From: [Clostridium] clostridioforme AGR2157
GTDB lineage: Bacteria > Bacillota > Clostridia > Lachnospirales > Lachnospiraceae
DNA length: 64,000 nucleotides
Direction of reading: 5' to 3'
Assembly: GCF_000424325.1 (NCBI RefSeq)
Contig: NZ_AUJR01000006.1
Location: 1 to 64,000, forward strand
Below are positions 26,846 to 64,000 of this stretch, piece by piece. The position numbers and the translations under genes are program-made. Within the stretch, counting starts at the first letter, position 1, and every line of letters begins with the position of its first letter. The notes beneath the pieces were generated by a model that saw only the letters and a list, made by a program, of their open reading frames with translations, ran no database searches and was not told the DNA's origin.

Positions 26846-27025
26846 CATTCATCTATGTTCTGCAACTGTAGCATGCGGACAAGCTCTGTTTGTCCGTATC
26901 CTTTTTGCAATCTGATTCGTCGAATATTACAGAGTGGAGCATGGGAGCATTTCCTGATGCTCCGCCCTGTCTCCTCTTTTTGCATGGAGCCGAGAACAGG
27001 AAGCAAATTTTGTTTTAAAAAATGG

Positions 27026-27054
27026 TTGAAATGCCAAAAAATATCTGATAGAAT
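27026..27054 (+). promoter_or_regulatory. promoter of the MerR-type regulator gene
   Basis: TTGAAA, a 17-base spacer and TAGAAT, with a 70-base leader before the ATG at 27124. Confidence 0.65.
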
Positions 27055-27123
27055 AGACGAATTCTTAGAAAAAACAGACAAAAGTTGTGGAGCGATGCGG
27101 AAAGGAGAAGGAAATAAGGGGAA

Positions 27124-27963
27124 ATGGAACAGAAGTTTTTTTCAATCGGAGAAGTGAGTAAAATCTGCAATGTCTCGAGAAAGGCATTGCGCTATTATGA
27201 TCAGATCGGGCTGATTTCACCAGACTATATCAACGAGGAGAACGGCTATCGGTATTACAGTGAGGACACTTTACTGTACGTACCGGTGTTGAAGTATTAT
27301 AAACAGATGGGGTTTAAGCTCGAGGAGATGCAGGGGCTTCTCGATGATGTGGATTTTGCAGGAATCAGAAAGTGGTTCCCGGAAAAGATCAGGGAATTGA
27401 TGGAGGAAGGACGCAGGATTCAGGAGAGTCTGATCTCGATTCAGGACTGGTATCAGCTGATTCGGGAGGCACAGATGGTTTTGCGCTACCAGACCTGTGA
27501 GATCTCCGTGAAATATTTTCCGGAGATGGATTTTTGTTACATGGATCAGGAATTTGCATACGATTATCCTCCGGCAGTTATCAACATTTCGTGGACGAAT
27601 TATCTTGAGGCGCATGGGGAGGAGATCACCGGTGCGGTGATCTTGCACTATGATTCGTTCAAGGACAAGATGGAGGGCAGATGCAAAAGCATGCGGATTA
27701 TGCAACAGGCAGTGAGACCGGATGCGCGGAGTCCGATCCAGTTAAAGCGGCGGCGCGGAATGGCGGCATGTGTGTATCACATCGGTCCCCATGAGACGAT
27801 TGACGCGGAGTACGAGAGAATCCGGGAGTGGGCGAGAAAGCGGGGATGTCGTCTCGCAGAGGATTCGTATGAGCGTTTTGTGACGGATTACTGGTCGACG
27901 AAGAAGGCGGAAGAGTTCGTGACGGAGATCATGGTTCCGTTTGAGGAAGAAAACGAAGAATAA
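27124..27963 (+). CDS. MerR-family activator of the choline BMC operon
   Basis: The 279-residue protein has an N-terminal MerR winged helix (FFSIGEVSKICNVSRKALRYYDQIGLISPDYINEENGYRYY), a dimerising coiled coil (about 75-115) and a C-terminal GyrI/BmrR-like effector-binding domain (about 125-275; ACVYHIGPHETIDAEYERIREWA). Such proteins bind a small ligand and activate promoters with an over-long spacer. The next promoter (28190-28221) has just such a spacer, so this is very likely the choline or TMA sensor of the operon. Pro codons are mostly CCG as in the rest of the island. It has its own promoter and terminator. Confidence 0.87.
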   Translation: MEQKFFSIGEVSKICNVSRKALRYYDQIGLISPDYINEENGYRYYSEDTLLYVPVLKYYKQMGFKLEEMQGLLDDVDFAGIRKWFPEKIRELMEEGRRIQESLISIQDWYQLIREAQMVLRYQTCEISVKYFPEMDFCYMDQEFAYDYPPAVINISWTNYLEAHGEEITGAVILHYDSFKDKMEGRCKSMRIMQQAVRPDARSPIQLKRRRGMAACVYHIGPHETIDAEYERIREWARKRGCRLAEDSYERFVTDYWSTKKAEEFVTEIMVPFEEENEE

Positions 27964-60783: not shown

Positions 60784-60812
60784 AAAAGGAGGCCTTACAC
60801 GGGCTTCCTTTT
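60784..60812 (+). terminator. terminator-like hairpin in the recombinase leader
   Basis: AAAAGGAGGCC pairs with GGCTTCCTTTT (one G-T) around TTACACG. The T-run is within the stem's 3' arm and then CTATATTT. TTGACA at 60709-60714 lies upstream with no good -10 at standard spacing, so the promoter is uncertain; the hairpin could attenuate recombinase expression. Confidence 0.5.
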
Positions 60813-60863
60813 CTATATTTGCCCGGCAGGGGAAGGAACATAAACAATCAAGGAGGAATGGAT

Positions 60864-61736
60864 ATGCCGAAGAGAATGATTTCAGGCGGAGAAATCGATG
60901 AGTACTGTCTCTGGCTGCAGCATAATGAAATGAGTCAGGGGACCATCCATAAATACAGATATTATCTGAAACAGTTTGAGCTGTTTATGGACGGGGGAGC
61001 GGTTACCAAAGAAAGGGTTATGATCTGGAAAGAAAAACTTAAGGGAAATCTGTCGCCGGTAACTGTCAATGGTGCGCTGGCTGCTGTCAATGGATTCTTC
61101 CGGTACCTGGGATGGAATGACTGCCTGGTCAAGTTTATAAAAGTAAAGCACCATGTATTCTGTTCCAGACAAAAGGAGCTGAACAGAGAAGAATACTTTC
61201 GGCTTGTGGAAGCTGCCCGGGAAGATGGGAATGAAAGATTGTGTCTTCTGATTCAGACCGTGTGCTCTACAGGTATCCGCATATCGGAGCTTTCCTATAT
61301 CACGGTTACGGCAGTGGAAAAACAGATTGCAGAAGTGGACTGTAAAGGAAAGGTCAGGACCATCTTTCTCACGCAGCAGCTGTGCAGGCTTCTTAAGGAG
61401 TATGCAGAGAAAAGAAAGATCCGATCCGGCACCATCTTTGTGACACGGAATGGAAAACCCCTGGATCGCAGCAATATATGGCGTGAGATGAAGAAGATCG
61501 GAATAAAGGCAGGAGTTGATCCGGAAAAGATATTTCCCCATAATCTGCGCCATCTCTTTGCAAGGGTGTACTACAGCCAGGAAAAAGATCTGCTGAGGCT
61601 GTCGGACATACTGGGACACAGCAGTGTCAACACGACGCGGATCTATACAATGGAAAGCGGGGAAAATCACGTCAGACAGTTGGAGAGAATGGGCCTGCTC
61701 ATAGACCGTTACAACAGAATTCCTCTTTTGTTGTAA
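60864..61736 (+). CDS. tyrosine recombinase of the adjacent DNA inversion switch
   Basis: The 290-residue XerC/D-like recombinase has an N-terminal SAM-like core-binding domain (10-90) and a catalytic domain with Arg139 (STGIRISEL), Lys164 region (KGKVRTI), His226 and Arg229 (FPHNLRH), His252 (LGHSS) and nucleophile Tyr261 (TTRIYT). The ATG at 60864 follows AAGGAGG by 7 bases. The last nine codons and the stop lie within the left 29-bp inverted repeat of an invertible segment, so the gene regenerates unchanged after each inversion. It most probably flips that segment. Confidence 0.93.
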   Translation: MPKRMISGGEIDEYCLWLQHNEMSQGTIHKYRYYLKQFELFMDGGAVTKERVMIWKEKLKGNLSPVTVNGALAAVNGFFRYLGWNDCLVKFIKVKHHVFCSRQKELNREEYFRLVEAAREDGNERLCLLIQTVCSTGIRISELSYITVTAVEKQIAEVDCKGKVRTIFLTQQLCRLLKEYAEKRKIRSGTIFVTRNGKPLDRSNIWREMKKIGIKAGVDPEKIFPHNLRHLFARVYYSQEKDLLRLSDILGHSSVNTTRIYTMESGENHVRQLERMGLLIDRYNRIPLLL

Positions 61737-61737
61737 A
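61709..61737 (+). repeat. left inverted repeat (recombination site) of the invertible segment
   Basis: This 29-base site is the exact reverse complement of 61948-61976. It begins TTACAACA, has the centre GAATTCCTCTTT and ends TGTTGTAA; the two 8-base ends are themselves palindromic, as expected for two recombinase arms around a crossover spacer. It includes the recombinase stop codon. Confidence 0.93.
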
Positions 61738-61947
61738 CAGAGGGGTAGCATTTACGATTATTATACTACATATTTTTTATGTTTGCCATAGAAATGTGAT
61801 TGGCTTATATATTTTTTTAAATCATCGGCACAATAAATAAGCTGGTTAAATCCAAATTTTTTCCAGCCTGTTTCTTGTGCTCTTTTTTATTTTTTTCCCG
61901 GATGATCCGGAGGATTGAAAGGATGGGAGAAGGTGACAATAAGGAAT
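61738..61947. mobile_element. 210-bp invertible DNA segment (phase switch)
   Basis: Bounded by perfect 29-bp inverted repeats and next to a tyrosine recombinase gene. It encodes no protein, is AT-rich and carries a promoter that now reads leftward. After inversion that promoter would lie at about 61896-61925 and read rightward into the small peptide gene and the BTAD regulator. A GCTGG/TTCCAGC hairpin near 61842-61867 may also act in one orientation. Orientation-dependent control is inferred; the repeats are seen directly. Confidence 0.88.
61760..61789 (-). promoter_or_regulatory. promoter inside the invertible segment, pointing away from the regulator
   Basis: On the minus strand ATGGCA, an 18-base spacer and a perfect TATAAT. 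In this orientation transcription runs antisense into the recombinase gene; inverted, it would drive the downstream genes. I found no comparable promoter on the plus strand of the segment. Confidence 0.65.
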
Positions 61948-61976
61948 TTTACAACAAAAGAGGAATTCTGTTGTAA
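61948..61976 (-). repeat. right inverted repeat of the invertible segment
   Basis: The exact mate of the left site, read here as TTACAACA, centre AAAGAGGAATTC and end TGTTGTAA. It lies 39 bases before the possible small peptide gene. Confidence 0.93.
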
Positions 61977-62014
61977 TTGGTAGCCAGGGTACTTTAAGTG
62001 AAGGGGAAGAAGAG

Positions 62015-62122
62015 ATGGGCAGTGAATGGTTTAGCGGAGTGGGTGACATGGTGTTGAAGCTAGTGGTAAATTTCAGGAGTGCCCTGGAACTGATGCGCAT
62101 GATCAGCATGATACAGCTGTAG
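62015..62122 (+). CDS. possible 35-residue amphipathic peptide gene
   Basis: A short reading frame opens with ATG at 62015, 6 bases after AAGGGGAAG, and gives MGSEWFSGVGDMVLKLVVNF followed by RSALELMRMISMIQL. It has hydrophobic and charged residues on alternating helix faces, as small membrane or leader peptides do. It lies between the invertible promoter and the regulator gene, 65 bases upstream of the latter, so it would be switched with it. Length alone cannot prove coding; it might be a leader peptide, a small effector or a chance frame. Confidence 0.4.
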   Translation: MGSEWFSGVGDMVLKLVVNFRSALELMRMISMIQL

Positions 62123-62187
62123 ACCAGGAGCGCGGAGCCTTCCGGCGCAATAAGCTCCGGCATATGATGATAAAGGAGGCGGACCGT

Positions 62188-63435
62188 ATGGGCGGTAAGA
62201 TTCTGCGTGTACAGATGCTGGGTAAATTTACAATGCGTTATGGGGAGGACCGCATACTGTTTCATAAAACAGGCAATGCAAAATCCGTGCGTCTTCTTCA
62301 GATGCTGCTGCTGTCCGGTGAGCAGGGCATTGCAAAAAGTGAGATCATGGATTTCCTCTATGGGTGGAGCGAGGTGACTGACGCGGGAAACCGCAATAAA
62401 AATTTGAACAATCTATGCTACCGGCTCAAAGGACAGCTGGCGGCTTCCGGCCTTCCGGAGGAGGAATATGTGGTCATACAGGATGGGGTATGCAGTTGGA
62501 AGAGCAGTTTTAAGGTTGAACTGGATGCAGCCTATTTTGAAACGCTGGTCCATAAGGCAGAGGGGAGCCAGGGCCGGGAACGGACCGCGCTGTTCCTTCA
62601 GGCCAATCAGAGCTATTACGGAGAGCTGCTTCCCATGTACCAGTCCGATATGTGGTTCTATGAGAAGAGTGAGTCTTTTAAGCGCCTTTATGAAGAGACG
62701 ATCCGGGAGTTGGAGCAGGCATTTAAAGCCGATAATGACTACCAGAACCTGCTGAAACTTTACACCAGGGCATCTGCGGTCTATCCCTTTGAGAATTGGC
62801 AGACAGAGCAGATACGGTGCTGCCTGGAAATGTACCGGTATGAGGAAGCCATCGATATTTATAACAGGACCATGGAACTCTACGCAAGGGAGATGGGGAA
62901 TCCTCCGGCGGAGGAGATGCAGAAGTGTTTTGAAGACCTGGAACTTTTTGAACGGAAGCACAAAAGAAGCATTCAGGCATGGCACACAACGGACCGGCAT
63001 TTTATGGGCAGGGAAGGGGATATCACCAGGGCCATATTTGAGGAAGGCATCATCACGGGGGCGTATTACTGTACCTATCCAAGCTTTATTGACTACTGCC
63101 GCCTGCTGCTTCGGGCCAGGGAGCGACATGACCTGAACCCGGTGCTGATGTTCCTTACTCTGGGTCAACAGGAAAAAAGAAGAGGGCAGGACAACCGCAT
63201 ATACCAGATGGAGCTGCTGAAAGACGTGATCGGCAGTTCCCTGAGAAAAGGGGATGCGTATACACGGTACGGAAACCGCCACTATATCCTCCTTCTCACC
63301 AGGATCAGCAAGGAATCCTGCAGCATTATATTTCAGCGGATCGAATCCGCCTACAATAAGGTACCGGGCAGCCGGGGAGAGCTGTGGTACCACGTGAACA
63401 TGACCCAGGAACTGGAAAAGAACATGCTGGAATAA
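62188..63435 (+). CDS. BTAD/SARP-like transcriptional regulator under the phase switch
   Basis: The 415-residue protein begins with a winged-helix domain (6-100: ILRVQMLGKFTMRYGEDRIL, KSVRLLQMLLLSGEQGIAKSEIMDFLY, NLNNLCYRLKGQL) and continues as a BTAD helical repeat domain (about 110-255), as in SARP/AfsR activators. The C-terminal 280-410 is a further alpha/beta domain (LNPVLMFLTLGQQEKRRGQD, DAYTRYGNRHYILLLTRIS) that recalls a degenerate GGDEF fold. The start at 62188 is set by AAGGAGG 8 bases upstream. It probably activates the surface-protein genes that follow, and the inversion switch decides whether it is made. Confidence 0.85.
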   Translation: MGGKILRVQMLGKFTMRYGEDRILFHKTGNAKSVRLLQMLLLSGEQGIAKSEIMDFLYGWSEVTDAGNRNKNLNNLCYRLKGQLAASGLPEEEYVVIQDGVCSWKSSFKVELDAAYFETLVHKAEGSQGRERTALFLQANQSYYGELLPMYQSDMWFYEKSESFKRLYEETIRELEQAFKADNDYQNLLKLYTRASAVYPFENWQTEQIRCCLEMYRYEEAIDIYNRTMELYAREMGNPPAEEMQKCFEDLELFERKHKRSIQAWHTTDRHFMGREGDITRAIFEEGIITGAYYCTYPSFIDYCRLLLRARERHDLNPVLMFLTLGQQEKRRGQDNRIYQMELLKDVIGSSLRKGDAYTRYGNRHYILLLTRISKESCSIIFQRIESAYNKVPGSRGELWYHVNMTQELEKNMLE

Positions 63436-63440
63436 AACTT

Positions 63441-63470
63441 ATATCGCCATTGCAATGTGGCGATATTTTT
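63441..63470 (+). terminator. terminator after the BTAD regulator gene
   Basis: ATATCGCCA pairs perfectly with TGGCGATAT around an 8-base loop, followed by TTTTT. Confidence 0.9.
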
Positions 63471-63624
63471 GAGCCGTATATAGAAAAATGGGAAAATGCA
63501 CCAGATGTGGCAGGTTGCAGGATACCCCCTTTGATAAAATTAACATTATGGAAAGATCACTTTGTCCATTAAGGGTAATATTAAGGAAAATATAAGAGTT
63601 TGCAAAACATACAGGAGGTAAATG

Positions 63625-64000
63625 ATGAATCGGAGATTGAAAGCGGGCTGGAAGAGGATAACGTCTGTTTTTTTGGCGTTTACCATTGTAAGCATACTGA
63701 TACTGGGCAATTCCGGGATTGCATTTGCCGAAGGATATGACGACAGGTTTTACCGGGAGGAGACGGATCTGTCGGAGCTTGGCGATTTTTCCAAGGCCAC
63801 GGTCAGCAATGCCAGCTTCAGAAATACAAAAAAGGATGATGTTGTTATCAGCATATTCTCAGAAGAGGGGGATTATCGTTCCGGAGGTCTGGTTACCCTG
63901 GATGTACACCTTAAGAATGAGACGGGAACCATGATCACAGATGGCTCCCTGACATATAGCGCCAAGGGAATTCAGGAGGGTTCGGCGGAGTTTCTTCTTT
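63625..64000 (+). CDS. exported protein, N-terminal part (runs off the window)
   Basis: The first 125 codons of a secreted protein. Residues 1-35 form a signal peptide: MNRRLKAGWKRI (basic), TSVFLAFTIVSILILGN (core), SGIAFAEGYDD (cleavage after AFA). The mature start (RFYREETDLSELGDFSKATV) leads into beta-rich sequence with RSGGLVTLDVHLKNETGTMI, like an extracellular beta-sandwich. AGGAGG lies before two in-frame ATGs; 63625 has the better spacing. It follows the phase-switched regulator and its terminator, so it may be the first gene of a regulated surface locus. The family cannot be told from this part. Confidence 0.75.
   Translation, partial: MNRRLKAGWKRITSVFLAFTIVSILILGNSGIAFAEGYDDRFYREETDLSELGDFSKATVSNASFRNTKKDDVVISIFSEEGDYRSGGLVTLDVHLKNETGTMITDGSLTYSAKGIQEGSAEFLL

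Follow-up and report, generated by a model that had tools for sequence, protein, structure and literature searches.

A probable promoter-inversion switch, captured in its OFF orientation, beside a tyrosine recombinase gene of [Clostridium] clostridioforme

The first 64,000 bases of contig NZ_AUJR01000006.1 of [Clostridium] clostridioforme AGR2157, whose genus we take to be Enterocloster, carry a tyrosine recombinase gene followed at once by a 210-bp DNA segment held between two exact inverted repeats. We call this whole stretch the window; it comprises bases 1–64000 of contig C5 in a 4.9-Mb genome of 133 contigs. We consider it highly probable that the locus is a self-contained promoter-inversion switch, caught in the OFF state, with a regulator that would act on adjoining surface genes.

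In the mechanism that we propose, the recombinase (60864–61736) would act on two 29-nt sites and thereby invert the 210-bp segment. At one end of the segment lies a putative sigma-70-type promoter that aims outward, and a terminator-like hairpin stands behind it. The sequenced state is OFF: the promoter points left, so that it would run antisense into the final part of the recombinase gene, and transcription arriving from that gene would end at the hairpin. In the ON state, the −10 element, which inversion would move to 61920–61925 and point to the right, would launch transcription across the right site and a 35-aa gene remnant into the gene for a regulator bearing a BTAD domain. This regulator would then act on the adjoining genes for an adhesin and for BsaA/TasA-type proteins. 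The switch is very probably functional. We infer that the segment flips in this strain, that the promoter is active, that the hairpin functions and that the surface genes are the regulator's target.

Anatomy of the segment and its recombinase

The left site (61709–61737, plus strand) and the right site (61948–61976, minus strand) are reverse complements at 29 of 29 positions. They enclose the segment (61738–61947, no strand assigned), which gives a spacer of 210 nt and a span of 268 bases with the sites included. Each site is itself a dyad (TTACAACA/TGTTGTAA) with an asymmetric center. A first reading of the letters alone, the original prediction, had claimed both the exact repeats around 210 bases and the dyad within each, and it was right on both counts. 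The pair stands by itself. A scan of the window at k = 14 for perfect inverted pairs with gaps of 30–1000 nt, a range that leaves hairpins with shorter loops out of the count, returned 16 k-mer pairs. This is the number that one 29-nt pair yields, and no further perfect inverted pair of at least 14 nt was found at these gaps in the 64 kb. Genome-wide, the site pattern with up to three mismatches has four copies, which form two pairs, each next to a homologous recombinase.

The recombinase gene (60864–61736, plus strand) encodes a 290-aa XerC/D-like protein (Pfam Phage_integrase, 2.4e-28; relatives of known structure in the PDB include XerC, XerA, and XerD). Residues R139, K161 or K163, H226, R229, H252, and Y261 match the catalytic R-K-H-R-H-Y set, the position of the lysine being uncertain, and they presumably serve the corresponding catalytic roles. 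The stop codon (61734–61736) and the last eight codons sit within the left site, so inversion leaves the protein unaltered, as had been predicted and as simulated inversion confirmed. Among named relatives, [Clostridium] citroniae WAL-17108 is the nearest, with a recombinase 88% identical to this one.

The candidate promoter consists of a −10 element TATAAT (61760–61765, minus strand), conserved in close loci, and a −35 element TGGCAA (61783–61788, minus strand), 17 nt away by hand count. It points left, away from the regulator, as the original prediction had stated for TATAAT; weak when taken alone, the element is conserved in relatives. Fourteen loci, the window among them, have a TACAAC-type site and a complete segment (13 from the main scan, plus L106), and we refer to these as close loci. 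When their segments are put in a common direction, all 14 show the −10 pattern TA[TAC]A[AC]T following [GA][TA]AG, and all 14 contain a −35-like T[AG]G... exactly 17 nt upstream, again by hand count. The distance from the −10 to the arm is 21–24 nt in 12 of them and 31–33 nt in the other two. The promoter always lies at one end of the segment and aims outward. It faces the recombinase in 12 of the 14 (OFF, including the window) and the downstream gene in two, L079 and L030 (ON). A crude score applied to 34 more distant loci called 16 OFF-like and 5 ON-like. Some clear cases among these, OFF as well as ON, have a TTG...-17-TA...T promoter at a distance of 57–71 nt from the end of the segment (L061, L070, and L073 OFF; L034, L036, and L038 ON). 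As a genome-wide signature, the 14-nt promoter motif was rejected: with at most one mismatch it occurs at 8 places, three exact, versus 9 for a reversed control. Separately, a one-mismatch promoter core lies at C15:8192–8205 of this genome (L129), and a BTAD paralogue starts 42 nt beyond it.

The segment also holds a terminator-like hairpin with a T-rich tail (61827–61897, plus strand; stem 61827–61881). In the present orientation, the 81-nt stretch 61820–61900 folds at −21.6 kcal/mol (z = −6.0), and none of 200 shuffles was equally stable. Six Enterocloster-clade loci keep the hairpin at the same place (z from −2.4 to −8.0). In a consensus fold of the six closest loci, two-sided changes occur in 4 of 21 pairs, with a covariation term of merely −0.19; across all 14 close loci, z is −2.4 or lower in eight and not in six, at 20 shuffles each. 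In the OFF state this hairpin would likely block read-through from the recombinase gene, leaving expression to be decided by the direction of the promoter alone. It was absent from the original prediction, as were the remnant of a gene for a 168-aa protein, the GGDEF-like end of the regulator, and three further cassettes in the genome, all described below.

Conservation and orientation among homologous loci

The anatomy of the locus is conserved, and homologous loci occur in both orientations. Homologues of the recombinase (E ≤ 1e-40) are found in 60 of the 299 genomes of a family-level sample, our own included. We examined 62 loci with a homologous recombinase (L025–L047 and L049–L087, L078 being the window itself). 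Inverted repeats surround a segment of 155–330 bp (best pair) just 3′ of the recombinase in 49 of these, the window included; because two loci are present twice (L025/L080 and L026/L085), this amounts to 47 of 60 distinct loci. The scan also took in 1200 bp upstream and kept up to three best pairs per locus; among these, the sole upstream pair was a hairpin of L075 whose loop is 5 nt long. The original prediction had named a lack of the repeats in relatives as grounds for abandoning it, and the repeats are conserved. A further sign of flipping is that in 11 of the 14 close loci the two arms of a locus are identical over 26 nt, although the site varies from locus to locus.

A direct comparison of orientations is provided by L079, on contig C14 of the same genome, and L084, in genome G011. 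Their recombinases are 91% identical, and their segments align with a score of 90.0 when one is inverted, compared with 6.5 in direct orientation and 3.5 for the best of 50 shuffles. The original prediction had proposed to compare orientations in relatives. Among homologous loci both are found, in this inverted pair and in the two ON and 12 OFF promoters of the close loci.

The ends of contigs point the same way. We counted contig ends in 138 recombinase rows (116 from the family-level sample and 22 from the search of nearest relatives, with one duplicate dropped). Ends within 300 bp of the recombinase number 21 downstream and 4 upstream, compared with 1.7 expected per side under uniform placement. 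Where at least 20 kb of contig adjoins the gene (106 rows), the counts are 8 and 3, with 0.4 expected. A smaller count over 52 loci gave 9 downstream and 1 upstream; it leaves out the rows without loci, where upstream ends occur too. Contigs C27 and C17 of G127 share exactly 55 bp, and the end of C27 coincides with the inner edge of the site, its last letters being GA, beyond which the two segment ends differ (GAG versus GAT). The contig of L047 likewise ends at the site edge, that of L028 stops 93 nt into the segment, and that of L035 stops about 30 nt past its site. In G384, the recombinase and left site lie at the end of C45, and a BTAD gene follows the right site at the start of C16. Contig breaks imply that the reads of relatives would contain mixed orientations. 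The central claim of the original prediction, a promoter flipped by the recombinase and now facing away from the BTAD gene, is thus supported by the anatomy of the 49 loci, by promoters pointing both ways, by inverted sister loci, and by contig breaks.

Alternative explanations

Several observations weigh against this account. The assembly contains a single orientation. The promoter of the window is by itself no better than chance, with four promoter-like sites compared with 3.3 expected in shuffles, and its motif was picked after the segments had been viewed, which makes it a description and no independent test. In the wider family, the score assigned no clear orientation to 13 of the 34 distant loci. 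In 13 of the 62 loci no repeats were found; in 8 of these, the contig ends no more than 300 bp past the recombinase. Contigs can also break where a genome has several similar cassettes, and 11 of the 21 downstream breaks fall in five genomes that each contribute more than one of the 21 (G045, G097, G151, G207, and G229); the excess of breaks is therefore supportive and no proof. As for the target, G004 has an interrupted regulator gene, and L079, L084, and L085 yielded no BTAD gene. The regulator is thus no obligatory target of such switches.

The first alternative is that the switch has become locked OFF in this species, inversion being rare or absent while repeats and recombinase persist. 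The interrupted regulator of G004 would fit such a history, as would the decay of the first downstream gene to a 35-aa remnant and the OFF orientation shared by the window and its nearest orthologues, L080 and L081. However, the arms are exact, the recombinase is open and has its catalytic residues, the promoter and hairpin are both present, and this genome's related cassette on C14 has the opposite orientation. We regard a locked switch as improbable and favor one that still inverts.

Far less probable again is the idea that the repeats are att-like integration sites of a small mobile element, with the recombinase as its integrase and the segment as its cargo or remnant. The recombinase does have distant relatives among phage and plasmid integrases. 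Yet all of these relatives (31 phage and 74 plasmid records) are less than 60% identical, which lends no support to a recent mobile-element origin. Moreover, the sites are inverted rather than direct, they enclose just a promoter and a hairpin, and the inverted layout recurs in the 49 loci. The site pattern had no match in viral contigs, and inspection by eye alone, with no program run, showed no matching site in the 420 bases that follow the recombinase gene of L163, the best phage record. The notion that repeats and hairpin act solely as RNA structures, in termination or attenuation and without recombination, draws on the hairpin being a good terminator candidate in its present orientation, and we give it hardly any credence, since it accounts neither for exact repeats separated by 210 nt next to a tyrosine recombinase nor for the inverted segment between sister loci.

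Downstream genes, related cassettes and known systems

If the switch inverts as proposed, the first reading frame that it would transcribe is a 35-aa remnant (62015–62122, plus strand), three pieces of which match a 168-aa protein; two internal deletions separate it from the gene that is intact in relatives. In the nearest relatives this 168-aa protein is encoded by the first downstream gene, and a member of its family also comes first in G011, in G012, and in the C14 paralogue, where the search turned up no BTAD gene in any of the three. The protein has no match in Pfam or NCBIfam. Homologues (E ≤ 1e-5) occur in 8 of 17 genomes of the genus, our own included, and a structure prediction for the family reached a predicted local distance difference test (pLDDT) score of 59, too poor for a search.

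The regulator follows (62188–63435, plus strand; 415 aa), starting at an ATG at 62188 that is preceded by AAAGGAGG. The original prediction had placed this gene at 62015–63435; it is best read as 62188–63435, with 62015–62122 as the separate remnant. The BTAD assignment itself holds (Pfam PF03704, E = 9e-07, residues 112–249). The protein combines a winged helix, assigned by fold match and without a Pfam winged-helix match, with the BTAD domain and a degenerate GGDEF-like C-terminal domain. An AlphaFold2 model built on a four-sequence alignment (pLDDT 73.8; predicted template modeling score 0.53) retrieved EmbR (1.5e-09) and AfsR (4.8e-09) in Foldseek, along with many GGDEF domains at weaker E-values. 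Matches of GGDEF type fall below threshold at residues 344–393, the weak Pfam GGDEF match spanning 346–393, and the motif there reads GNRHY by eye; with GNRHY in place of GGDEF, catalysis by this domain is unlikely. Homologues of the regulator occur in 12 of the 17 genus genomes, our own included, and L029 and L030 likewise have a BTAD gene after the switch. On contig C1 of G004 (L081), the arrangement is the reverse of the window: the regulator is interrupted, and the genes for the 168-aa protein and a large exported protein are open.

After the regulator comes a hairpin (63441–63466), kept in two relatives, which is terminator-like on the minus strand only and has a short T run on the plus strand. 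Because it lies between the regulator and the adhesin gene, the two may lack a common transcript. The adhesin gene begins at 63622 on the plus strand. The exported protein that had been predicted after the regulator is present; it runs past the window end at 64000 and continues on C5 to a full length of 1780 aa, with Cna_B and fibro-slime domains. Beyond it are two SipW-dependent proteins of the BsaA family that score above the curated cut-off and one that scores below, all of BsaA/TasA type. Control of a surface trait, as had been suggested, fits these neighbors. In L027, the switch stands directly before a SipW-like signal peptidase and exported proteins with such an N terminus (by eye). Regulators of the SARP family bind direct-repeat operators ahead of their target promoters. 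Upstream of the adhesin gene, the window has ATTAAGG twice at a 12-nt period, but L080 and L081 have it once, so that of these three loci only the window shows a possible direct repeat of this kind.

The genome has four homologues of the recombinase, on C5, C14, C6, and C3, all with adjoining inverted repeats. The C14 cassette, opposite in orientation to that of the window, has a gene of the 168-aa family behind its switch. The C6 cassette (L086, C6:20000–36000; recombinase 26947–27771) precedes flagellar genes that by eye are FlgB-, FliE-, FliF-, and FliG-like, which suggests phase-variable flagella in the same genome. The C3 cassette (L087, C3:180000–196000; recombinase 187327–188142) precedes polysaccharide genes, also by eye. 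The reading frame of its recombinase continues through the site into the segment, so that inversion would alter the C-terminal tail; L027 and L029 show a similar change.

A tentative possibility is that the switch also feeds back on its own recombinase. With a site written over the final codons of the recombinase gene, every inversion would swap the 3′ untranslated region of that gene. In the OFF state the promoter would run antisense into it, so orientation could set the level of recombinase and, through it, the rate of switching. We think such feedback doubtful. The genome has four cassettes of this kind, and at least three precede surface systems that differ from one another (fibers, flagella, and polysaccharide).

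Promoter invertons beside tyrosine recombinases are already known in gut Clostridia, and the mechanism is known. PMC11892184 describes 33 invertons of group 139, 32 of them from Clostridia, linked to tyrosine-type invertase group 35. In its example from Clostridium sp. D5, 26-nt repeats stand 205 bp apart by the printed coordinates, and the orientation ratio shifts in culture. Judged by that description, the group resembles our locus in having a tyrosine-type recombinase beside the inverton; a site within the recombinase frame and a hairpin in the segment are features of the window that the passages considered do not mention. The fim switch of Escherichia coli (fimS, with FimB and FimE) likewise has an invertible promoter near tyrosine recombinase genes. 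In contrast to fim, the window has a single recombinase, a site over its last codons, and a regulator rather than a structural gene as its first intact target. Orientation of the fim switch also affects termination of the recombinase transcript, according to PMC2784873. The same paper describes the cwpV switch of Clostridioides difficile, a 195-bp inverton by a surface protein gene, served by an XerC/D-type recombinase (RecV) and involving a terminator, features comparable to those here. There, however, the promoter is external to the inverted DNA and recV lies at a distance, whereas the window has promoter and hairpin inside and the recombinase adjoining. An invertible terminator of the cwpV type was rejected for the window, given the conserved promoter inside its segment. 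Further C. difficile switches appear in PMC5903667. Relative to the passages considered from PMC11892184, PMC2784873, and PMC5903667, three details are additional: a site that overlaps the recombinase frame, the hairpin, and the domain make-up of the regulator.

The regulator shares its BTAD domain and its Foldseek matches to EmbR and AfsR with the SARP/AfsR/EmbR proteins. It differs from them in its degenerate GGDEF-like C terminus, its surface-gene context, and its occurrence in a member of the gut Clostridia rather than in an actinobacterium. Searches of the open-license literature gave no match for SARP together with BTAD and phase variation, for tyrosine-recombinase invertible promoters with phase variation in Lachnospiraceae, for invertons of Clostridium citroniae, or for PhaseFinder work on recombinases of Lachnospiraceae, and nothing relevant on invertible DNA in Enterocloster. 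In the same literature, SipW in connection with inversion led to one review, an invertible promoter combined with antisense and a terminator to one C. difficile paper, and the regulator's two domain names together to one paper. If our account is correct, a gut lineage varies its surface (fibers, flagella, and polysaccharide) by a family of one-gene flip switches, and a SARP-type regulator with a GGDEF-like end is under phase-variable control. One inverton family would then be tied to a candidate enzyme, site, promoter, and targets, with each step open to experiment.

Finally, a terminator-like hairpin also lies upstream of the recombinase gene (60784–60812, plus strand). Similar sequence is seen by eye in L080, L081, and L085, and the hairpin is possibly an attenuator or the end of an upstream transcript. 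The citroniae locus, L080, has a palindromic insertion of about 60 nt that separates leader and recombinase gene.

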